Origin: Cycloclasticus pugetii PS-1
Lineage (GTDB): Bacteria; Pseudomonadota; Gammaproteobacteria; Methylococcales; Cycloclasticaceae
Assembly: GCF_000384415.1 (NCBI RefSeq)
Contig: NZ_ARVU01000001.1
Span: 496,001 to 560,000, forward strand
DNA length: 64,000 nt
Reading direction: 5' to 3'
Made by a program: the position numbers and the translations under genes
The notes under the pieces: generated by a model
The model's database searches: none
The model's input: only the letters and a program-made list of their open reading frames with translations
Told to the model about the DNA's origin: nothing
Shown here: one piece after another, positions 27,274-59,120 of the stretch
How the letters are laid out: every line of letters starts with the position of its first letter
Position numbering within the stretch: the stretch's first letter is position 1

Positions 27274-27311
27274 AACACCCGTAATGTGAAAGAAATCACA
27301 TTACGGGTGTT
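27274..27311 (-). terminator. Strong hairpin downstream of maeB
   Basis: A perfect 16-base stem (AACACCCGTAATGTGA and its complement) with a six-base loop. The T tract is better on the plus strand (TTTT) than on the minus strand, where TTGGTTTGTT follows; maeB on the minus strand is the obvious user. Confidence 0.75.
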
Positions 27312-27323
27312 TTATCGCTTAAA

Positions 27324-29591
27324 TTAGCTAACCTCACCTTGTTCTGCAGAGCATAAAGCGGTCATGTTCAGGATTCGCCTGACAGAGGCAAAAGGCTTTA
27401 GAACGTGTACGGGTTTTTCTAAGCCCAATAAAATAGGACCAATGGTTACCCCGTCACTTAAGATGCGAACCATGTTAAATGAAATGTTGGCGGCGTCTAA
27501 ATTAGGGAAGATAAATAAATTAGCTTCACCGTTAAGTTTGGAGTCGTTTATCACGCCTTTTCTTAAATTTTCAAGCAACGCAGCATCGGCTTGAATTTCG
27601 CCTTCAACTTCAAGTTGAGGATGTTTTTCATGAAGAATGCTAACAGCGCTGGACATTTTTTTTGCATCATCATCATTAGCGCTGCCAAAATTAGAATGTG
27701 ATAGTAAGGCGGCTTTAGGGGTGATGCCAAATCGTTTAACATGGTTAGCAGACTGCAATGTCATGGCAACTAGCTCATCAGTAGTTGGGTTGTTGTTTAC
27801 CATTGTGTCGCAAAAGAAGAAAACGCCTTTTTGTAATGAAATGGCGCTCAGTGCCGCTACATTTTTTACCCCGTCTGCTTTATCTAAAATATCGGTAATA
27901 TGACCAAGGTGTCGGTGATAATTGCCAACCATGCCACAAATCATAGCGTCAGCTTTGCCAAGCTTGACAAGTAAGGAGGCTAAGACGGTTGTTTTTGTCC
28001 GCACATAATTTTGCGCTAAGGTTAATGAAACACCTTTTCGCCCTTTTGCTTTATGGTATTCGGCAACACATTCGCGAAAGTAAGGGTTGTTGTCTGGTTC
28101 AATAATTTCAACTTGATCTAGTATTGATGTTTCAAGGCCTAATCGATCAATTTGTTCAAGAATGACCTTTTTACGACCTACAAGAATGGGCGAGGCTAAC
28201 TGCGAGTTAACGATCTCTTGTACGGCGCGAAGTACTCTTCCATTTTCCCCTTCGGCATAAACGACACGCTTTGGTGTGAGTTTGGCTTGCTCGAAAATAG
28301 GCTTCATGACCATACCTGAACGATAAACATAGCGTTCAAGCGAGGCTCTGTAATGATTAAAGTCTTTAATTGGTTTGGTAGCAACACCACTTTCCATAGC
28401 GGCTTTGGCAACAGCTAATGGTATTTCAATAATAAGATTAGGATCGAAAGGACGAGGAATTAAGTATTCGGGTCCAAAAACAGGGGTCTTTCCAACATAA
28501 CTATCACTGTCGTCATTTACTGCTTTTTGTGCCAACTTGGATAGTGCGCGGATACACGCGAGTTTCATTTCTTCGTTAATGGTAGTTGCGCCAACATCAA
28601 GTGCGCCCCTAAAGATATAAGGGAAACACAGCACATTATTCACTTGATTTGGATAGTCAGAGCGACCAGTTGCAATAATAGCGTCATCCCTTACTTCTTT
28701 AATCTCTTCGGGTAGTATTTCGGGTGTGGGGTTAGCAAGTGCGAAGATGATAGGTGATTTGGCCATTTGTTTGACCATGTCTTTAGTCATCATGCCGGCA
28801 CGTGATACGCCTAGGAAAATATCTGCTCCGACAGTGGCTTCGGCTAAGGTTCTGATGTCAGTTTTAGTCGCGTAGCGTTGTTTGCGATCATCCATTCCTT
28901 CAGTTCTGCCGTCATGGATAATCCCTTTACTGTCGCTGACGAGAATGTTTTCTCGTTTGAGGCCCATTTCAACAAGCATATCTAGGCATGCAATACCGGC
29001 CGCACCTGCTCCAGATGCAACTAGTCGAACCGTTGAAATGTCTTTATTGGCTACTTTTAAGCCGTTAAGGATAGCAGCGGCTGTGATAATGGCGGTGCCA
29101 TGTTGGTCATCGTGGAAAACAGGGATGTCAATTTTTTCACGAAGCTTTTTTTCGATGAAGAAACATTCGGGTGCTTTAATATCTTCAAGGTTAATGCCGC
29201 CAAAGGTGGGTGCTAGGCTGGCCACAATATCAACAAATTTATCGGGGTCTTTTTCATTGATTTCAATGTCAAAGACATCTACGCCGCCAAACTTCTTAAA
29301 CAGGACGCCTTTGCCTTCCATAACTGGTTTTGAGGCCAGTGGGCCTATATCCCCTAAGCCAAGGACGGCAGTACCATTGGTAATTACCGCCACTAGGTTG
29401 CTTCGTGCCGTATAAAGTGCGGCAGAAGAGGGGTCTTTGGCTATTTCTAAACAGGGTTCTGCCACGCCGGGGCTGTAAGCCAAAGCAAGGTCGGTTTGGT
29501 TACTCAGTGCTTTAGTCGGTGTAACTTCAATCTTTCCAGGCTTCGGATGTTGGTGATAATACAGCGCGTTCTTTATAGGCTTGTCAGACAT
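27324..29591 (-). CDS. maeB: NADP-dependent malic enzyme with C-terminal phosphotransacetylase-like domain (MaeB)
   Basis: A 755-residue two-domain protein. Residues 1 to about 420 are malic enzyme: [45 protein letters not shown] and the nucleotide site [15 protein letters not shown]. Residues from about 430 are phosphotransacetylase-like ([49 protein letters not shown]), a domain that is regulatory in this family. It converts malate to pyruvate and CO2 with NADPH formation, sensible when growth on aromatics supplies acetyl-CoA and C4 acids. The plus-strand frames across it are shadows. Confidence 0.94.
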
Positions 29592-29713
29592 AATTTAAGT
29601 AATAGTTTGGTTGATGTCGAAATGATAGTGTCATTATACGTTAAACTAGGCGGTTAATTGCTAACTTGGCTTACGAGTTAGATGTTTTATTTTTACAAAT
29701 ACAAGTTTTAAAT

Positions 29714-30640
29714 ATGAATGCACTTGAAATAAATCAGCTATACAAGCGTTACGATAACGACTTTCTTGCGGTTAAAGGTATAAATTTAGAGGTCAAGCAG
29801 GGAGATTTTTTTGCACTATTAGGTGCAAATGGCGCAGGCAAGTCCACCACAATAGGCATTGTGGCCTCGTTGGTTAATAAGACATCAGGTACTGTTAAAG
29901 TCTACGGGCATGATTTGGATACTGACCCGGAAGGGGTGAAGCGCTGTCTTGGTTTAGTGCCACAAGAGTTTAATTTTAATCAGTTTGAAAATGTCTTTGA
30001 TATCGTTGTGTCTCAGGCCGGCTATTACGGTATTCCTCGAAAAAAAGCGCTGGAAAGAGCTGAGATTTGTCTAAAACAGCTAGAGCTTTGGGATAAGCGT
30101 AATGAAGCAGCAAGAGAGCTGTCAGGCGGTATGAAACGGCGGTTGATGATTGCGCGAGCATTGGTGCATGAGCCGAAATTACTAATACTCGACGAACCTA
30201 CAGCTGGTGTTGATATTGAAATACGTCGGTCAATGTGGCGCTTTTTTAAGGAAATAAATGCTGCTGGAACGACGATAATTCTAACCACCCATTATCTAGA
30301 GGAAGCAGAAAGCCTGTGTAAGCATATTGCCATTATCAATAAAGGTAATGTGATTGAGAATATGGATATGAAGGGTTTGCTGGAAAAAGCAGATGAAGAG
30401 GTTTTTGTATTGAGCCTTGAGCGACCGGAAAAAGAGCTGCCAGTAATAACGGGTTGTAGAATAGAGCGTTTGGATGAAACGACATGGCAGGTTAGCGTGC
30501 GCAAGGAGTCGGGAATACACGCCTTATTTGATGAGTTAACTCAATTGGGTATAAAAGTATCGGGTATTCGTAATGAATCAAACAGGCTAGAACAGCTGTT
30601 TCTTAAGTTATTAGTAAAGAAGGGTAAGGATAATGTTTAA
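29714..30640 (+). CDS. yadG: ABC transporter ATP-binding protein (YadG type)
   Basis: A 308-residue ATPase from the ATG at 29714, which gives the same length as E. coli YadG; an upstream TTG at 29666 would add 16 residues and has no ribosome site. Walker A is GANGAGKST, signature LSGGMKRR, Walker B LLILDEPTAG and switch TTHYLEEAE. The LVPQEFNFNQFENV block is typical of YadG. It pairs with the membrane gene that overlaps its end. The exported substrate of YadGH is not established. Confidence 0.9.
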   Translation: MNALEINQLYKRYDNDFLAVKGINLEVKQGDFFALLGANGAGKSTTIGIVASLVNKTSGTVKVYGHDLDTDPEGVKRCLGLVPQEFNFNQFENVFDIVVSQAGYYGIPRKKALERAEICLKQLELWDKRNEAARELSGGMKRRLMIARALVHEPKLLILDEPTAGVDIEIRRSMWRFFKEINAAGTTIILTTHYLEEAESLCKHIAIINKGNVIENMDMKGLLEKADEEVFVLSLERPEKELPVITGCRIERLDETTWQVSVRKESGIHALFDELTQLGIKVSGIRNESNRLEQLFLKLLVKKGKDNV

Positions 30641-31406
30641 TAAAGAATACTGTGTTGCGCTAGAAACAATAACGTATAAGGAAGTTAGACGTTTTCTACG
30701 TATTTGGGTGCAAACTTTATTGCCATCGGTGATTACTACAACGCTTTATTTTCTTATTTTTGGTACTTTAATTGGCTCAAGAATTGGGACAATGAATGGC
30801 TATGATTATATGGACTTTATTGTCCCTGGGCTTATTTTAATGGCGGTTATTAGTAATGCCTATTCAAATGTAGTTTCCTCTTTCTACAGTTCAAAATTCC
30901 AGCATAATATTGAAGAAATGTTGGTTGCACCTATTCCCGGTTGGATTATTTTGACAGGGTATATTTCTGGTGGGGTGCTGAGAGGGCTGATCGTGGGGGT
31001 TTTGGTGACGATTGTGTCCTTGTTTTTTACAGACTTAAATATTGCACACCCGGTGATGATGGTGGTTGTGTTCTTGTTAACAGGGGTGTTGTTTTCAGCG
31101 GCGGGCTTTATTAATGCAGCCTATGCAAAAAGCTTTGATGATATTTCAATTGTGCCAACGTTTGTTTTGACGCCTTTGATATATTTGGGAGGGGTGTTTT
31201 ATTCGATTGACTTATTGCCAGCGTTTTGGCAAAACGTATCATTACTCAATCCAGTACTTTACATGATCGATGTATTTCGGTTTAGTATATTAGGCGAGTC
31301 TGATATACCGCTGTTATACGGCTTTATCGTTATTGCGACATTTATTGTTTTTATGTTGGGGGTCAGTTTAAGGCTACTTTCTAAGGGAATTGGTATAAGG
31401 AATTAG
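30633..31406 (+). CDS. yadH: ABC-2 type permease (YadH type)
   Basis: A 257-residue membrane protein with six hydrophobic segments and the ABC-2 layout (YMDFIVPGLILMAVISNAYSN, EEMLVAPIPGWIILTGYISGG, FVLTPLIYLGGVFYSIDLLP). It overlaps the ATPase gene by eight bases, so the two are translated together as one exporter. Confidence 0.9.
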   Translation: MFNKEYCVALETITYKEVRRFLRIWVQTLLPSVITTTLYFLIFGTLIGSRIGTMNGYDYMDFIVPGLILMAVISNAYSNVVSSFYSSKFQHNIEEMLVAPIPGWIILTGYISGGVLRGLIVGVLVTIVSLFFTDLNIAHPVMMVVVFLLTGVLFSAAGFINAAYAKSFDDISIVPTFVLTPLIYLGGVFYSIDLLPAFWQNVSLLNPVLYMIDVFRFSILGESDIPLLYGFIVIATFIVFMLGVSLRLLSKGIGIRN

Positions 31407-31569
31407 TTAACGAGATTGAATGATGCGGTGCGATAGGATAGAATTCGAAAAGTTTTATAAGTAATTTTTCTAGAAGTATTGACGGCAGGTCAGCGGGTTA
31501 TAGTCGCTACTCGACATTAAACGTGCAGTCTGCTTAAACAAACAAACTTAAATCAATTAAGAAGCCTAA

Positions 31570-32915
<1,346 letters not shown>

Positions 32916-32916
<1 letters not shown>

Positions 32917-34121
32917 TGTCTCGTTTAAGGAATTATTTAGATTCAATACACCCTAAGTTCGCTAAAGGCGGATCACTAGAGAAGTATTATGCGATTTATG
33001 AAATGGTGGATACCTTTTTATATACGCCTAAAGATGTAACCGCAGGCACAACGCATGTAAGAGATGCTATTGATTTAAAGCGTATCATGACGTATGTATT
33101 CATCGCGGCGTTACCTTGTGTGTTGATGGCAATGTGGAATACCGGCCATATGGCGAACATGGCGATGGCTGAGTTAAACATGACATCGTTAGATTCATGG
33201 CGTGGGTTTGTAACAAATGCGGTCGGCTATAACCCAGACAGTCTTGTGGCAAACATGGTACATGGTGCCATGTACTATATACCCATTTATGTTGTTACCG
33301 TATTAGTAGGCGGTATTTGGGAAGTCTTATTTGCAATTGTGCGTGGGCATGAGGTTAACGAAGGGTTTTTCGTTACATCAATGCTGTTTTCGCTGATTTT
33401 GCCGGCCACAATTCCTCTTTGGCAGGTAGCTATTGGTATTTCATTTGGTGTTGTTGTTGGTAAGGAAGTGTTTGGTGGTACAGGTAAAAACTTCTTGAAC
33501 CCCGCGTTAACAGCACGTGCGTTTTTGTTTTTTGCTTATCCAGCTCAAATGTCAGGTGATGCTATTTGGACGGCTGTTGATGGGTTTAGCGGTGCGACGG
33601 CTTTAGGCATGGCTGCTGCGGGTGGTATTACAGCAGTAACGACCTCAGGAATTACTTGGATGGATGCGTTCTTAGGAACGGTGCAAGGCTCAATGGGTGA
33701 AACCTCAACACTTGCGTGTTTAATTGGGGCGAGCTTTTTGTTATATACCCGAATTGCTTCGTATCGCATTATGTTAGGCGTCTTAGCTGGCATGATAGTC
33801 ACCAGTACTATGCTTAATTTAATTGGTAGTGACACAAACCCTATGTTTGCAACACCTTGGTACTGGCATGCTGTATTAGGTGGTTTTGCATTTGGTGCCA
33901 TCTATATGGCAACGGACCCTGTGAGTGCGGCGATGACAAACACGGGTCGATGGGTGTATGGTCTATTAATTGGTCTGATGGTGGTTTTAATTCGTGTGGT
34001 AAACCCTGCTTTCCCAGAGGGAATGATGTTGGCCATATTGTTTGCCAATATGTTTGCACCATTGATTGATTATTTTGTTGTTCAGTCAAACATCAAAAGA
34101 AGGGAGAAAAGAAATGCCTAA
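32916..34121 (+). CDS. nqrB: Na+-translocating NADH:quinone reductase subunit B
   Basis: A 401-residue polytopic protein with about ten membrane segments. The covalent FMN site is the Thr in GFSGATALG near residue 227. Other conserved parts are [21 protein letters not shown] and [16 protein letters not shown]. NqrB carries covalent FMN and riboflavin and forms the main Na+ path. It overlaps nqrC by eight bases. Confidence 0.95.
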
Positions 34122-34935
34122 TGAAAATGAAGCGAAGCCAGTGGGCAAAATGAACTTCCTCGCGTTATCAAACGATAGTACGCTTAAAACGTTCATCATG
34201 GCGACTTTAGTGTGCCTAGTATGTGCAGTTTTTGTGTCGATTTCAGCTGTTGCACTTAAACCACTACAAGAACTTAATAAAGAGCTAGATAAGAAGAAAA
34301 ATATTCTTCAAGTAGCGGGTTTGTATGAGCAAGGCGATGATATCGAAGCGGCTTTTTCAAAAATTGATATTAAGCTTGTTGATTTATCAACGGGTGAGTA
34401 TGTCACCGATATGGATCCGGCAACATACGATGTAAGACGAGCAGCTAAAGACCCAAACTTGAATGTAACAATACCTAAGTCAGATGACCTTGCTAATATC
34501 AGGATGCGTCCGAAATATATGCCGGTTTATCAAGTGAAAGAAGGTGATGCTGTGAAGCAGCTAATTCTTCCAATCAATGGTTATGGTTTATGGTCAACCT
34601 TGTACGGTTTCCTTGCGGTAGAAAATGATGGCCAGACCATTGTTGGTTTAAGCTACTACGAACACGCAGAAACCCCTGGTTTAGGTGGGGAAGTAGATAA
34701 CCCAAAATGGAAAAAAATATGGGATGGAAAGAAAATCTACGGACCAGAGGGTGATGTTGCAATTAAAGTCATTAAGGGAACGGTTGTTCCGAGTGCACCT
34801 AAAGCGGAATATCAAGTTGATGGTTTAGCGGGAGCAACATTAACAAGTCGTGGTGTGAGTAATATGCTGAAATATTGGATGGGCGCTGAAGGGTATCAAC
34901 AATACCTGAATAAAGTTCAAGAGAATGGAGCGTAA
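34114..34935 (+). CDS. nqrC: Na+-translocating NADH:quinone reductase subunit C
   Basis: A 273-residue protein from the ATG at 34114, which follows AAGGGAG; a longer frame to 34066 runs deep into nqrB. One N-terminal membrane segment ([18 protein letters not shown]) anchors a periplasmic domain. The flavinylation motif reads [12 protein letters not shown]: the Thr that takes FMN is there, but the usual Ser/Thr two residues before the Ala is Ala (34828-34830). ApbE, encoded downstream, would attach the FMN. Confidence 0.94.
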
Positions 34936-34937
34936 CG

Positions 34938-35600
34938 ATGAATAAAGAAACTCAAAAAATTATATTAGACCCATTAGTTGATAATAACCCTATCGGCTTA
35001 CAGGTTTTAGGGGTTTGTTCAGCGCTAGCTGTAACAACAAACCTGGGGACGGCACTCGTTATGTCATTAGCCCTGACATCAGTGACAGCGTTTTCGAATC
35101 TATCAATTAGTATGATTCGTAATCATGTTCCTAGTGCAATCCGTATTATTGTTCAAATGACGATTATTGCATCGCTGGTTATTGTTGTTGACCAAGTGTT
35201 GAAAGCCTATGTTTATGATTTAAGTAAGCAGCTGTCTGTATTTGTTGGGTTGATTATTACTAACTGTATTGTGATGGGACGTGCAGAAGCATTTGCAATG
35301 AAAAACCCACCAGGACTTAGTTTTTTAGATGGTATAGGAAATGGTCTGGGGTATTCGCTTGTTCTAATGTTTGTAGGTACATTTCGTGAGCTCTTGGGCT
35401 CAGGAAAATTGTTTGGTATAGAAATCCTATCAACTGTAAATGATGGGGGTTGGTACGTACCTAATGGTTTAATGTTATTACCACCGAGTGCATTTTTTAT
35501 CATAGGTTTAATGATCTGGGGTGTTCGTTCATTACGTCCTGCACAAGTTGAAAAGGCGGAATTTAAAATCAAAGAAGTTAACGGAACGGAGGTTGCGTAA
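34938..35600 (+). CDS. nqrD: Na+-translocating NADH:quinone reductase subunit D
   Basis: A 220-residue integral membrane subunit of the RnfA/RnfE/NqrD/NqrE family, with about six segments. [24 protein letters not shown]-like start, [25 protein letters not shown] with a conserved Cys, and [22 protein letters not shown] are typical. Two bases separate it from nqrC, and it overlaps nqrE by one base. Confidence 0.95.
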
Positions 35601-36208
35601 TGGAAGCTTATATAAGTTTATTTGTTAAAGCGGTTTTCGTAGAAAACTTAGCGTTATCTTTCTTCCTTGGGATGTGTACGTTCTTAGCTGTTTCTAAGAA
35701 GGTTTCTACCGCCATGGGTTTAGGTGTTGCCGTGATTTTGGTGCAAACGTTAACAATGCCACTGAATAACATTTTATACCAAGGTTTACTTAAAGAAGGT
35801 GCGCTTGAGTGGTTAGGGCTACCAGAAGTTGATTTAAACTTTTTAGGATTAATTGTTTATATTGGCGTTATTGCGGCGGTCGTTCAAATTCTTGAAATGG
35901 CGATGGATAAGTTTGCACCAGCACTCTATAACGCACTGGGTGTGTTTTTGCCGTTAATTACCGTGAACTGTGCGATTCTAGGTGGTTCATTGTTTATGGT
36001 AGAGCGAGATTATAATTTAGGCGAAAGTTTAGTCTTTGGCTTTGGCAGTGGCTTAGGCTGGGCACTAGCGATTACAGCCATTGCAGGAATAAGAGAAAAG
36101 CTAAAATATTCAGATGTACCTGATGGCTTACGTGGATTAGGGATTACCTTTATCACAGCAGGCTTAATGGCGATGGGCTTTATGGCATTCTCTGGTATTC
36201 AACTGTAA
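35600..36208 (+). CDS. nqrE: Na+-translocating NADH:quinone reductase subunit E
   Basis: A 202-residue membrane subunit, homologous to Nqr[25 protein letters not shown] at the start and [27 protein letters not shown] in the second half carry the conserved Cys residues that bind an intramembrane iron-sulfur centre together with NqrD. Confidence 0.95.
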
Positions 36209-36221
36209 TTAGGAACTCAGT

Positions 36222-37445
36222 ATGTTAGAAATTGGTTTAGGTATAACGTTTTTTACCGGTATTGTCTTAATCCTGGTGATGATTATTTTGGCGGCAAAGT
36301 CAAAATTAGTAGCGCATGGTAATGTCAAAATATTAATTAACGGTGAAAAAGAAGTAGAGGCACCTGTGGGTGGCAAATTGCTAGGCGCATTAGCAGATGC
36401 TCAATTATTCGTTCCTTCAGCGTGTGGAGGCGGGGGCACTTGTGGCCAATGTAAGGTGCGTGTTCAAGAAGGTGGTGGCTCAATGTTACCAACCGAAGGT
36501 GCTCACATTAATAAAGGTCAGCAACGTGATGGTGAACGCTTATCGTGTCAGTTAACGGTTAAACATGACATGAAAATTACAGTGCCAGAAGAAGTGTTTG
36601 GTGTTAAGAAGTGGAAATGTAAAGTTAAATCAAACCATAACGTAGCGACATTCATTAAAGAACTGGTTCTTGAATTGCCTGAAGGTGAAGATGTTGGCTT
36701 CCGTGCGGGTGGTTATATTCAAATTGAATGTCCACCGCATGTTGTAGATTATAAAGACTTTGACGTTGAAGAAGAATATAGAGCTGATTGGGATCACTTT
36801 AATATTTGGCGTTATAAATCTGAAGTTGATGAAGAAGTATTAAGAGCATATTCAATGGCTAATTATCCTGAAGAAGAAGGGATAATAATGTTAAATGTTC
36901 GTATCGCTTCACCAGCACCTAATGCGCCAGAAGGCACCCCACCTGGGAAAATGTCTTCTTATATCTTTAACCTTAAACCGGGCGATGAAGTTACGATATC
37001 TGGCCCTTATGGTGAGTTTTTCGCCAAAGAGACAAAGTCTGAAATGGTCTTCATAGGTGGTGGTGCAGGTATGGCGCCGATGAGGTCACATATTTTTGAT
37101 CAACTACGTCGGATTAAAACAGATCGAAAAATATCATTCTGGTATGGTTCTCGAAGCCTAAAAGAAATGTTCTATGTGGAAGATTTCGATATGCTCGCGA
37201 AAGAAAACGATAATTTTGAGTGGCACGTTGCTTTATCAGATCCACAGCCTGAAGATAATTGGGATGGTTTGACAGGTTTTATTCATGAAGTTTTATTTGA
37301 AGAATACTTAAAAAATCATCCAGCACCTGAAGATTGTGAGTTTTACATGTGTGGGCCACCAATGATGAACGCAGCGGTGATTAAAATGCTTCAAGACCTT
37401 GGTGTTGAAGATGAAAATATCATGCTCGATGACTTTGGTGGATAA
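36222..37445 (+). CDS. nqrF: Na+-translocating NADH:quinone reductase subunit F (NADH-oxidising flavoprotein)
   Basis: A 407-residue protein: N-terminal membrane anchor, 2Fe-2S domain with [12 protein letters not shown] near residue 69 and a fourth Cys in RLSCQL, FAD domain with RAYSMANYP, and NADH domain with [14 protein letters not shown] and [11 protein letters not shown]. It takes electrons from NADH and passes them into the complex. The apbE start codon follows its stop directly. Confidence 0.96.
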
Positions 37446-38498
37446 TTGAGTTTACTTAAGCACCCCGCTAAAAATGTAATATTTTTAGCGGGTTTTTTAA
37501 TATTTCTCAGCTTACTTAATGGTTGCGATTCGCAGCATAAATCAGCGTTTACATTAAGTGGCGAAACGATGGGTACGACCTATCACATAACTATTGCAGC
37601 AGATCAATTAAATGAAACACAAGAGTCATTAAAAAAAGCAATAGACTCACGCTTAGTTGAAATTAATCAGTCATTCTCAACGTATATTGGTTCCTCGGAA
37701 GTGTCTGTCTTTAACGACTCTAAGGGCCAGCAGTGGCACAAAAAATCTAAAGAGTTTATAAATGTTTTAGCACACGCTCAACAGATAAGTGATATTACTG
37801 AGGGTGCATATGATATTACTGTCGGACCTTTAGTGAACCTATGGGGTTTTGGCCCGACATTTAATGTCGATGAGATACCAACTGAAGTTCAGATCAAGGA
37901 AGTCCTAGCTAGTGTGGGCTATCAAAATATTGCTTATAACCTAGACACGCTTGAGATTAAAAAGTTAAACGATAAGGTGTATATCGACTTTTCGTCTATT
38001 GCTAAAGGCTATGCTGTCGATGAAATTGCAGAACTTATTGAGTCAAGAGGCTATAGCAACTATATGGTCGAGATTGGCGGAGAAATGCGATTACGCGGTA
38101 AAAACGCACAAAATACCTTATGGCGTATAGCAATTGAAAAGCCAGACTCAAAAAATCGTTCAATCCATCGCGTACTTAAGGTAAGCGATACGGCTATTGC
38201 TACCTCAGGTGATTATAGGAATTTTTTCGAGAAAGATGGTGTTCGTTTTTCTCACACTATTAATCCCACAAATGGCCAACCCGTTCAGCATAAATTGGCC
38301 TCAGTTACTGTGCTGGCAGAAAATAGTATGAAAGCAGATGCTTGGGCAACAGCTTTTATGGTATTGGGTCATAAAAAGGGGTACGATTTGGCTGTGTACA
38401 ATAGATTAGCTGTATTATTTCTGGTGAAGGATGGTGATAGCATTAGAGAAATAGCAACACCAGAATTTACCTTAATGACCCAGGGGTTATCATCATGA
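37446..38498 (+). CDS. apbE: FAD:protein FMN transferase ApbE (lipoprotein), flavinylates Nqr subunits
   Basis: A 350-residue ApbE. TTG start at 37446 touches the nqrF stop. A lipoprotein signal ends at LLNGC (Cys27). ApbE motifs are ETMGTTYHI, EGAYDITVGPLVNLWGFGP, DFSSIAKGYAVD, VEIGGEMRLRG and TINPTNGQP. It transfers FMN from FAD to Thr residues of NqrB and NqrC in the periplasm. An unusual feature is that the codons for the signal peptide overlap a canonical intrinsic terminator (37464-37498), so expression relative to nqrF is probably damped. Confidence 0.93.
   Translation: MSLLKHPAKNVIFLAGFLIFLSLLNGCDSQHKSAFTLSGETMGTTYHITIAADQLNETQESLKKAIDSRLVEINQSFSTYIGSSEVSVFNDSKGQQWHKKSKEFINVLAHAQQISDITEGAYDITVGPLVNLWGFGPTFNVDEIPTEVQIKEVLASVGYQNIAYNLDTLEIKKLNDKVYIDFSSIAKGYAVDEIAELIESRGYSNYMVEIGGEMRLRGKNAQNTLWRIAIEKPDSKNRSIHRVLKVSDTAIATSGDYRNFFEKDGVRFSHTINPTNGQPVQHKLASVTVLAENSMKADAWATAFMVLGHKKGYDLAVYNRLAVLFLVKDGDSIREIATPEFTLMTQGLSS
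37464..37498 (+). terminator. Intrinsic terminator inside the apbE signal-peptide codons
   Basis: CCCGCTAAAAAT pairs perfectly with ATTTTTAGCGGG over a five-base loop and is followed by six T. It lies 19 bases after the nqrF stop and within codons 7-18 of apbE. Confidence 0.8.
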
Positions 38499-38692
38499 AT
38501 ATATTTTTAGTAACGTTTTTAGTTTTCATGCTAGTAGTGATATTCATGTCTGTTGGTGTGATCTTTAGCAATCGCAAAATCAAAGGCAGTTGTGGTGGTC
38601 TTAATAACATTGATGGGCTAGAAGGTGATTGCGCTCTTTGTAGTAAAAAAACCTGTGATAAAAAGAAAAAGATGGAAAAGTTAAACGCTTAG
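38495..38692 (+). CDS. nqrM: Nqr maturation factor NqrM
   Basis: A 65-residue protein with one N-terminal membrane helix and a Cys-rich tail (GSCGGL, GDCALCSKKTC), the DUF539/NqrM pattern. NqrM helps deliver iron to the NqrD/NqrE centre. It overlaps the end of apbE by four bases (ATGA), as expected for this operon. Confidence 0.92.
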   Translation: MNIFLVTFLVFMLVVIFMSVGVIFSNRKIKGSCGGLNNIDGLEGDCALCSKKTCDKKKKMEKLNA

Positions 38693-38731
38693 TCATTCTT
38701 ACAATAAGTTTATAGGATATAAGGGGAGTAG

Positions 38732-39133
38732 ATGTTTAAGTCAGTATTAATAAAAGACTACATGGCCACTAATTTAACGACCTTCACGCCAGGACTGGAA
38801 ATTTCCCAGGCGATTAAGTATTTAAATACGCATAAAATATCTGGCGCACCGGTGGTGGATGAGCGTGGCACACTGGTAGGAATGTTGTCCGAAAAGGACT
38901 GTCTTCAAGTGGCATTACAGTCAACCTACTATGAAGACTGGGTGGGTGGTGTCGTGTCAGAGTATATGACTGAAGAATTAGAGACAGTGCCAGATACGGC
39001 CAGTATTGTAGACGTTGCTGAGAAATTTTTAAAATCATCATTTAAACGTTATCCAGTACTCGATGAAGACGGCGAATTGGTTGGTCAAATTAGCCGGAGT
39101 GATGTACTTAGAGCACTGGATAAACTTTGGTAA
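38732..39133 (+). CDS. CBS-domain pair protein
   Basis: A 133-residue protein made of two CBS motifs: KDYMATNLTTFTPGLEISQAIKYLNTHKISGAPVVDERGTLVGMLSEKD and a second one from about residue 78 (SEYMTEELETVPD to LVGQISRSDVLRAL). Such pairs bind adenine nucleotides and act as regulators, but no partner domain is fused. It follows nqrM by 39 bases and precedes sbcB by three. Confidence 0.88.
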   Translation: MFKSVLIKDYMATNLTTFTPGLEISQAIKYLNTHKISGAPVVDERGTLVGMLSEKDCLQVALQSTYYEDWVGGVVSEYMTEELETVPDTASIVDVAEKFLKSSFKRYPVLDEDGELVGQISRSDVLRALDKLW

Positions 39134-39136
39134 GCT

Positions 39137-40582
39137 TTGTCTGAAACATACTACTGGTACGATTACGAAACAACGGGCATTGATCCTGCTAGAGATCGTG
39201 TGGTCCAGTTTGCGGGTATACGTACGGATTTAAACTTTAATCCAGTTGCAAACCCCGATGTTTTTTATTGCAAATTGCATGATGATATCTTGCCTCACCC
39301 AGAAGCGTGCCTAATTACTGGAATTACACCACAACATGCAATCAGAGAAGGTCTATTAGAAAGCGAATTTATTAAGCGAGTGCACCGCGAGTTTAGTACG
39401 CCTCAAACATGTGTCGTTGGATACAACAGTATTCGATTTGATGATGAATTTACAAGGCACCTTTTATATAGAAATTTTTTCGATCCTTATGCCCGTGAAT
39501 GGAAGTCTGGCAACTCACGTTGGGATTTAATAGACCTAGTTCGATTGACACATGCTCTTAGACCAGATGGAATTAATTGGCCACAACGTGAAGATGGCGC
39601 GGCTAGTTTTAAATTAGAAGAGCTGACTAAAGCGAATGGTATCTTGCATGAGGCCGCACATGATGCCTTATCAGATGTATATGCCACTATTGAATTAGCA
39701 AAGCTTATTAAGCAACAACAACCTAGAATTTATAGTTGGGGCTTATCACTGCGAAATAAAAAAAAAGCCGCGGAAAACCTGGACCTGATACACAATACCG
39801 CTGTTATACATGTGTCGAGTAAATACCCTGCCGCACAAGATTGTTTAGCAGTTGTTGTCCCCATTGCTGCTCACCCAGTGAATAAAAATGGAGTGCTGGT
39901 TTTTGATCTATCTGCTGACCCAACAGAGCTTATTGACTTAACAGCTGAAGAAATCCACCAGCGATTATACACACCTACGGCTGAATTAAATGAAGGACAG
40001 AAGCGCCTGCCTCTTAAGACCGTTCATATTAATAAATCACCAATGTTGGCACCTTTAAGTACCCTGACTACAGAGGTCAAAAATAAATTAAATATTGATT
40101 TACTGCGGTGCGAAGAAAATAGGCAAAAAATACTCGGTGCGGGTATTGAAAAAAAACTGGCAGAAGTTTTCTCTATTAATACATTCGAAAGCGCTACAGA
40201 CCCTGATTTAATGCTATATAGTGGCGGTTTTTTTAGCCCTATAGATGTGCAAAATATGACGCAAATACGTGCTTGTCCAATAGATAAATTGGCAGAGTTA
40301 TCGTTGCCATTTGAGGATGAGCGTTTAGAAGAAATGTTGTTTCGTTATAGAGCAAGAAATTACCCGGAAACTCTTAACGAGGTGGAAAAAACGCAATGGC
40401 AAGCATATCGCCACAATTGTTTTATTAAAGAACATAATGATGGACGTTTAACCTTAAAAGCATATTTTGAAAGGCTTGATGAGTTAGTGGTTGACGGTGA
40501 TTGGAGTGAAGAACAGCAAGTGCTACTAGAAGAATTAATTGATTACGGTGAGGCAGTTGCCGACAGTTTGGTATCAGACTAA
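39137..40582 (+). CDS. sbcB: Exodeoxyribonuclease I
   Basis: A 481-residue DnaQ-type 3' to 5' exonuclease for single-stranded DNA. Start is TTG at 39137. The Exo I motif is YDYETTGIDPARDRVVQFAGIRTD, with YNSIRFDDEFTRHLLYRNFFDPYAREW, and HDALSDVYATIELAKLI as Exo III; the SH3-like and C-terminal parts follow (LPLKTVHINKSPMLAPL). It works in recombination and mismatch repair. Confidence 0.94.
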   Translation: MSETYYWYDYETTGIDPARDRVVQFAGIRTDLNFNPVANPDVFYCKLHDDILPHPEACLITGITPQHAIREGLLESEFIKRVHREFSTPQTCVVGYNSIRFDDEFTRHLLYRNFFDPYAREWKSGNSRWDLIDLVRLTHALRPDGINWPQREDGAASFKLEELTKANGILHEAAHDALSDVYATIELAKLIKQQQPRIYSWGLSLRNKKKAAENLDLIHNTAVIHVSSKYPAAQDCLAVVVPIAAHPVNKNGVLVFDLSADPTELIDLTAEEIHQRLYTPTAELNEGQKRLPLKTVHINKSPMLAPLSTLTTEVKNKLNIDLLRCEENRQKILGAGIEKKLAEVFSINTFESATDPDLMLYSGGFFSPIDVQNMTQIRACPIDKLAELSLPFEDERLEEMLFRYRARNYPETLNEVEKTQWQAYRHNCFIKEHNDGRLTLKAYFERLDELVVDGDWSEEQQVLLEELIDYGEAVADSLVSD

Positions 40583-40753
40583 ATTTTTATTCATTGGCTT
40601 TAATCGCTAACAAACGTGGCCGGACTGCAAACAACTTGAAGGTATCATGAAAAAAGATTAAAGGTGTTGGTAGAATGTCTCCGATAAACCTTATTCCAAG
40701 CGTTAAATCATAATTGGTTTAGCGTTAACGATTAACAAAGCGCAGGAAATAGC

Positions 40754-41038
40754 ATGGCAGAAACAGTAGAAGAGCTAACCGTTAGTTATACAGATGGCGG
40801 TATTGAAACAGTAAAAGAACTTGATAAAGTCGTTCTTTCAAAGGGTGCATGGGCGACCGTTATATACAAGCATCAAGACTGGAATCGTACAAAAGAAGAG
40901 TATGGCCCTGATAAATATACCATTCGTCGTTATCAAAAGCGTAATGGTGAGTACCAGCAGAAATCAAAGTTCAATATATCGAGCGCTGCCCAAGCGGAAG
41001 GTATTATCGCGGCATTACAAGGTTGGATAAAAAAATAA
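40754..41038 (+). CDS. Conserved-looking hypothetical protein
   Basis: A 94-residue protein of mixed charge, rich in Lys, Glu and Tyr, with a GGIETVKELDKVVLSKGAWATVIYKHQDW core and IRRYQKRNGEYQQKSKFNISSAAQAEGII near the end. It looks like a small soluble beta-rich domain. An AGGAAATAGC site precedes the ATG and an intrinsic terminator follows, so it is a plausible single-gene unit. I cannot name the family with certainty. Confidence 0.75.
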   Translation: MAETVEELTVSYTDGGIETVKELDKVVLSKGAWATVIYKHQDWNRTKEEYGPDKYTIRRYQKRNGEYQQKSKFNISSAAQAEGIIAALQGWIKK

Positions 41039-58610: not shown

Positions 58611-59120
58611 TTATGTACCTTCTGGGCTATTAAATAAAAGGTATAAATCAATCACACAATCAGGGATTTTTTCAGCCATATCGTCGAGTAGATCGTCATT
58701 TTGGGTGATCTCATCTATTTCATCATCGAGTAACTCAGAGCACGCTAGAATCGGTAGCGTGAGTTCGGCAATGTCTTCTGGCTGAGAGTTAAACCACAGA
58801 TCCTCATGCATAAAGACACCCTGCATAAAACCAGACGACCATAGGGTGAGAAAGTCTTCATCAGGTTCTTCAGACTCGCCAATCATCGTTGGAAACTCAC
58901 CATTTAATAAGGCTTGTTCAATATTTTTTTGTAAATCAAAAATGGCTTTTTCAATAGAGGCGTTGGCGTCATTATCTGCCAATATTTCGGATAGAATTTG
59001 TTGCTGTGACAAGCTGCCAGGTTGTACAACTAGGCTGGTTAAAAAACCATGCATTTCAAAGAAGTACATGGCTTCGTCACTCAGTTTTTCAGAGTTAAAG
59101 AATGTGTTTAAAAGGTCCAT
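58611..59120 (-). CDS. UPF0149/YecA-family protein
   Basis: A 169-residue acidic protein of the UPF0149 family: EMHGFLTSLVVQPG near the start, FLTLWSSGFMQGVFM in the middle, and an Asp/Glu-rich end with FNSPEGT. It has no zinc-binding SEC-C tail. Function unknown. It is probably in one operon with the DUF1853 and TraB-family genes. Confidence 0.82.
   Translation of the reverse strand: MDLLNTFFNSEKLSDEAMYFFEMHGFLTSLVVQPGSLSQQQILSEILADNDANASIEKAIFDLQKNIEQALLNGEFPTMIGESEEPDEDFLTLWSSGFMQGVFMHEDLWFNSQPEDIAELTLPILACSELLDDEIDEITQNDDLLDDMAEKIPDCVIDLYLLFNSPEGT

Follow-up and report, generated by a model that had tools for sequence, protein, structure and literature searches.

The DNA that we analysed, called the window, is a 64,000-nucleotide stretch of the genome of Cycloclasticus pugetii PS-1, which is complete (2.38 Mb). 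It carries the six genes of the Na+-translocating NADH:quinone reductase, followed by apbE and nqrM (Table 1). ApbE attaches FMN to NqrB and NqrC (as stated in PMC12052999). The apbE product of the window has an ApbE domain and a predicted exported N-terminus with a lipobox Cys, as in ApbE lipoproteins, and this Cys is invariant in the ApbE of 15/15 Cycloclasticus genomes. At the site of the possible Shine-Dalgarno sequence, GGTGGNTAATTGA is found in all 15. In the window, the TTG at 37446 is the sole ATG, GTG or TTG in the open frame ahead of the first aligned ApbE residue, and the same holds for L001, L004, L009, L012, L013, and L014. With no alternative in-frame start, and with the lipobox Cys at residue 27, a normal signal peptide requires the codons that form the hairpin described below.

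Table 1. Features at and around the nqrF-apbE junction (window coordinates)
Feature	Position	Strand	Basis or remark
nqrABCDEF, six subunits of Na+-translocating NADH:quinone reductase	31573..37445	+	ORFs; NCBIfam nqrA-nqrF equivalogs
nqrF	36222-37445	+	stop TAA at 37443-37445
GGTGGA, possible Shine-Dalgarno for apbE TTG	37437..37442	+	in final nqrF codons; from sequence, role putative
TTG, apbE start codon	37446..37448	+	abuts nqrF stop; TTGA invariant in 15/15
apbE, FAD:protein FMN transferase, 350 aa	37446..38498	+	Pfam PF02424, E 4.6e-92
ApbE lipoprotein signal peptide	37446..37526	+	translation; lipobox-like LNGC, Cys27 at 37524-37526
Hairpin 5' arm CCCGCTAAAAAT	37464..37475	+	codons 7-10 (PAKN) of apbE
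Hairpin loop GTAAT	37476..37480	+	within codons 11-12; variable in relatives
Hairpin 3' arm ATTTTTAGCGGG	37481..37492	+	codon 12 last base to codon 16 second base
T-run TTTTTT (terminator U-tract)	37493..37498	+	codon 16 last base to codon 18 second base
nqrM	38495..38692	+	Pfam PF04400; overlaps apbE stop (ATGA)

The hairpin starts 18 nt past the nqrF stop, and together with its T-run it occupies apbE codons 7 to 17 in full and the first two bases of codon 18. The stem has 12 perfect pairs, to which folding adds one G-U pair, shrinking the loop to 3. A 71-nt segment folds with -21.1 kcal/mol (z -5.0), and none of 200 shuffled sequences folded as well. The element is thus a stable, G+C-containing stem-loop directly before a run of T, the sequence pattern of a Rho-independent terminator. 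The presence of a terminator-like hairpin with a T-run in the signal codons of apbE, proposed in an earlier sequence-only reading of this DNA, was therefore confirmed from the sequence, the ORF and the fold.

Comparison within its own genome speaks against a chance hairpin. We scanned 464 kb (the window and 20 further 20-kb stretches), which contain 419 ORFs and 403 kb of ORF. Looser ORF-wide terminator rules gave 360 candidates and were too noisy; they were replaced by a stricter set (stem of at least 7 pairs with at most one mismatch, loop of 3-10, and at least five T in six). At dG <= -14, two sense hairpins internal to an ORF, two antisense ones, and 25 that were intergenic or at an ORF edge were found. 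The apbE hairpin is the most stable terminator-like hairpin on the sense strand inside any ORF of the 464 kb, and a terminator score places it 6th among 153 candidates. Among the 14 listed sense-internal hairpins with dG <= -9, two lie less than 100 nt from the ORF start, the apbE site and window positions 59046-59072. The latter, on the minus strand, carries TTTTT, lies 48 nt into a 510-nt ORF (dG -10.1) and is possibly a second terminator at an ORF start. Another strong terminator-like hairpin (27276-27309, dG -22.5) is located just past the end of the minus-strand ORF 27324-29591, which we take to resemble malic enzyme.

An ApbE match was obtained in 15 of the 18 genomes of the genus; the three without one (G008, G010, G014) are 78-87% complete. 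Relatives with different codons and no hairpin had been named beforehand as the observation that would speak against the sequence-only reading. The 15 examined of the 18 keep both hairpin and codons, together with the frame, the TTG abutting the nqrF stop and a spacing of 17-18 nt; the 60 aligned junction columns are gap-free. The ApbE proteins of the other 14 are 56-65% identical to that of the window. A 13-pair helix starts 17 nt past the nqrF stop in 14 of the 15 genomes and 18 nt past it in the window, where the first pair is missing. At least six consecutive T are present in 14/15, in L010 after a C. By the same terminator score, L010 reaches -16.8 when its stem is fixed and L011 reaches -11.3; in L010, counting in the G-C closing pair puts six T directly after the stem. 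In L011 the T-run is interrupted (TTTATTC) and the pairing of the hairpin is kept via a two-sided change. The broken T-run of L011 and the negative scores of both genomes count against a terminator. L011 and L121 represent a Cycloclasticus symbiont of a sponge, and a broken T-run beside a kept hairpin is perhaps the sign of a terminator under loss in this symbiont.

We examined whether the pairing itself is under selection. In the alignment of the 15 genomes, 98.5% of the 195 cells of the 13-pair helix are paired; slid registers are 33-60% paired, and none of 500 shuffles, which ignore relatedness, was as high. Two-sided changes are found at 5 of the 13 base pairs, and three of these five alter amino acids on both arms. 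A G-C pair becomes A-U in L003 (V>I with T>M), a C-G pair becomes U-A in L011 (P>L with G>S), and a U-A pair becomes C-G in L001 (V>A with T>A), for which L002 has the U-G intermediate. At four positions A-U is replaced by G-U and at one U-A by U-G. The amino-acid changes thus appear to follow RNA pairing. Codon choice gives a similar picture. In pairwise species comparisons, the identity of codons that encode the same amino acid is 0.913 over codons 7-18, and 285 twelve-codon windows in the rest of apbE have a mean of 0.447 and a maximum of 0.80. The two loop codons are identical in only 9 of 25 such comparisons. The two-sided changes and the synonymous conservation indicate selection on the pairing, and the comparison strongly supports the view that a single DNA stretch serves two functions under selection.

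A hairpin could also be a by-product of signal-peptide composition, because early Lys codons (AAA) are complementary to later Phe codons (TTT), with no selection on the nucleic acid. When the 15 signal peptides were recoded with synonymous codons, dG <= -8 was reached in 5-91 of 300 draws, which indicates that Cycloclasticus signal peptides are predisposed to pair. A comparable tendency was seen among 98 signal-like N-termini of the 464 kb, which were picked by a crude hydropathy rule for signal-peptide or transmembrane character and scored with the hairpin rule used for the relatives: 14 reach dG <= -8 and 5 reach -13, apbE being included in both numbers and having the most stable hairpin of all. 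In a different, earlier scan of signal-like N-termini, 10 had dG <= -8 and 2 had dG <= -14. The observed energies are another matter, since they were matched by just 0-3 of 300 draws in 14/15 genomes (3 of 300 in the window, 23 of 300 in L006). Together with the two-sided substitutions and synonymous conservation, both signs that the nucleic acid itself is selected, this makes composition a very improbable explanation of the hairpin, and it may instead explain why such a site could evolve, as well as some weak distant cases.

We propose that the element is an intrinsic terminator that closes nqrA-F, lies wholly within the first 18 codons of apbE, lowers the expression of apbE-nqrM and is partly tuned by nqrF translation; we give this reading a probability of about 0.78. 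It is directly supported by the dual constraint, the conserved position and spacing, and the T-run in nearly all of the genomes. We infer termination from the T-run and the folding energy, and from the fact that unrelated hairpins recur at this one place in other families. An improbable alternative is that the hairpin is no terminator and acts instead as an operator in the DNA, or as a site where the RNA is bound or processed (a regulator palindrome, an RNase site or an mRNA-stabilising structure). Conserved inverted repeats can be operators, and L011 has kept its pairing despite a broken T-run. However, at least six T behind the stem in 14/15 genomes speak against such a site, and the unrelated hairpins of other families fit a sequence-specific site poorly. 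The G-U and U-G replacements argue for pairing in RNA, not in DNA, and Rfam gave no match up to E 1 in 31000-39200. A stabilising role of the 3' end is compatible with termination.

If the hairpin terminates transcription, the 3' end of the nqr mRNA would be fixed some 50-55 nt past nqrF. Many nqr transcripts would end there and the remaining polymerases would continue into apbE-nqrM, and ApbE and the maturation factor NqrM would be made at a lower level than the Nqr subunits. As a catalyst, ApbE should be required at lower levels than the proteins that it modifies. The residues of the signal peptide would be chosen jointly by export and RNA pairing. A ribosome that finishes nqrF close behind RNA polymerase probably weakens hairpin folding at a spacing of 17-18 nt, and read-through would then partly report nqrF translation, rising when the ribosome trails the polymerase closely.

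Experiments with the tR2 terminator in E. coli bear on this spacing. PMC4824070 reports a sequence-dependent efficiency of about 0.8 at 18 bp and about 0.12 at 17 bp from the stop codon, in two sequence series, explains this by a ribosome at the stop that can get in the way of terminator folding, and describes efficient termination less than 100 bp into a coding sequence. Because efficiency varies at these distances and the ribosome can hinder folding, partial termination is expected at the apbE site. The sequence-only reading was supported in part. Its core, a dual function under selection, stood, with hairpin, TTG and frame kept in every genome examined and two-sided changes and codon identity in its favour. 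Its further proposals, that most nqr transcripts would end at the hairpin, that ApbE and NqrM would thereby be kept low relative to the subunits, and that translation could melt the hairpin, are plausible; "most" is not assured because the E. coli series spans both of the above efficiencies. Coupling may owe as much to the ribosome that ends nqrF as to one that starts apbE.

The sources cited here already describe terminators in the coding sequence of leader peptides, and maps and constructs in them provide ORF-internal 3' ends or terminators. The tR2 constructs resemble the apbE site in lying 17-18 bp from an upstream stop and inside an ORF start, but they are synthetic, whereas the apbE hairpin occurs naturally, is conserved and has co-evolved with a signal peptide (constructs from PMC4824070). 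According to PMC4191407, bmrB of Bacillus subtilis likewise has an intrinsic terminator in its codons, with translation-dependent efficiency; it encodes a leader peptide with anti-terminators that responds to ribosome-targeting antibiotics, whereas apbE encodes a full-length, predicted exported enzyme with the terminator near its start and behind another gene. The pyrBI attenuator, as summarised in PMC4824070, also has its terminator in a coding sequence, with read-through set by the distance between ribosome and polymerase, but there the encoded product is a leader peptide and the sequence includes sites where the polymerase pauses. The apbE element does not have the layout of a leader-peptide attenuator, as its terminator lies in the ORF of the 350-aa ApbE, not in a short leader ORF with regulatory codons. 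Natural RNA 3' ends within coding sequence, as proposed here for apbE, were mapped genome-wide in one species, E. coli (PMC7815308); the text available from that paper has no occurrence of "signal peptide" and no conserved terminator doubling as signal codons, and "nqr" is absent from the text available from a P. aeruginosa 3'-end paper (PMC8297930). Judged by titles and the beginnings of abstracts among the matches listed, the open-access literature has no report of a terminator that is conserved within apbE or within signal-peptide codons.

At this naturally occurring, conserved junction, the same nucleotides make up a likely terminator and the signal peptide of an exported protein. It suggests how an enzyme that should be required only in catalytic amounts could share an operon with abundant targets and not be overmade, and why some signal peptides look as they do. 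It is also a warning for gene finding, since a strong terminator does not place the next start codon downstream of it.

We extended the comparison beyond Cycloclasticus, the sole genus sampled from its family. Junctions of the same order were hand-picked from the best NqrF hits, and one genus (g11) was deliberately over-sampled after it had shown the feature. Of these 24 junctions, 22 have a terminator-like hairpin in the signal-peptide codons of apbE, 21 of them at dG <= -13. In 13 of the 22 the 5' arm contains ACGAGG, read as KRG or RG, with a 3' arm read as LVFLL or similar; the hairpin of L050 and L056 is unrelated in sequence (CGCATAGCAG..CTGCTATGCG). In L050 and L057 the sole starts ahead of the hairpin fall inside the end of nqrF, for example the ATG within GATGAC. 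The junction scan required T-rich tails, so the tails of other families are no independent evidence. The L016-L031 stretches (genus NqrF hits from the same genomes) and the duplicate genomes L119-L121 and L124 were left out of the junction counts.

A broader sample came from a draw across the class, in which 59 of 369 genomes had NqrF; 40 of 60 listed places were taken, mostly higher-scoring, and apbE was found in 25 of the 40 stretches. We added 13 named loci chosen by likeness to the ApbE of the window, of which at least two carry the label of another phylum. The junction counts in and beyond the order are therefore not those of a random sample. Among these 38 further junctions, 17 have a signal-codon hairpin at dG <= -8 and 11 at -13. 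The other 21, of which 15 have no such hairpin and six an intergenic one only, count against the terminator reading. The class draw by itself gave 10/25 at -8 and 7/25 at -13, compared with 13 and 4, respectively, among the window genome's 97 other signal-like N-termini, a control from one genome with a crude signal rule that is only a rough null for the class draw. The weak cases L084, L133, L135, L140, L163, L164, and L169 are counted at -8 and not at -13; L123 and L136 were counted although apbE lies more than 800 nt from nqrF, and L064 was counted as intergenic because its hairpin lies in an open frame with no ATG, GTG or TTG upstream. Among the seven class cases at -13, L106 and L112 have imperfect T-tails and were missed by the first scan. 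Outside the order, imperfect T-tails accompany the ApbE signal-codon hairpins of L112 (family f156) and L140 (a Psychromonas MAG). Other reading frames are used as well, giving KTR..ASFLF in L122 and L141 and KNSE..SLF in L101 and L158.

Peptides such as PVKN..FLTGFF, KRG..LVFLL, KTR..ASFLF, and NSE..SLF are thus spelled by unrelated hairpins in different frames. We lean, by a small measure, to a wider generalisation: in many Gammaproteobacteria the ApbE signal peptide would be spelled by the nqr terminator, one element setting both the subunit-to-maturase ratio and export, with pairing dictating amino acids and with several unrelated hairpins and frames in use.

Some relatives (among them L053, L060, L084, L085, L087, L090, L091, and L097) have two hairpins in tandem, the first plain intergenic, 0-53 nt after nqrF, and the second in the signal-peptide codons of apbE. 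The plain extra terminator suggests that apbE has its own promoter in these relatives and that the signal-codon hairpin acts on that transcript. On a rival reading, apbE-nqrM would be transcribed mainly from a promoter inside nqrF, and the hairpin would be an attenuator of that transcript or the ordinary end of nqr with no stoichiometric meaning. We consider this unlikely for Cycloclasticus, where there is no gap between the genes and transcripts from any promoter further upstream still have to pass the hairpin; a promoter scan was also unsupportive, with 21 promoter-like matches in 29000-41000 compared to a shuffle mean of 31.4.

Terminator-like hairpins were also found where apbE was not. 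Of 37 stretches with no apbE match, 25 have one within the first 330 nt (dG <= -9) and 12 do not. Fewer than 350 nt follow nqrF in six of the 37 (L047, L049, L061, L065, L066, and L070), so these cannot be taken to lack apbE; in L049 and L066 the sequence resembles a truncated start of apbE. We considered whether loci of the L059 type are remnants of an apbE signal peptide (ARGVWLISLLLVF); this idea was dropped, as the terminator gives a similar peptide in that frame regardless. In seven stretches of the order that have no apbE match (L055, L058, L059, L069, L081, L082, and L110), a CGAGG..CCTCG or closely similar terminator lies within about the first 260 nt after nqrF. The CGAGG-type nqr terminator thus seems to exist with or without apbE.
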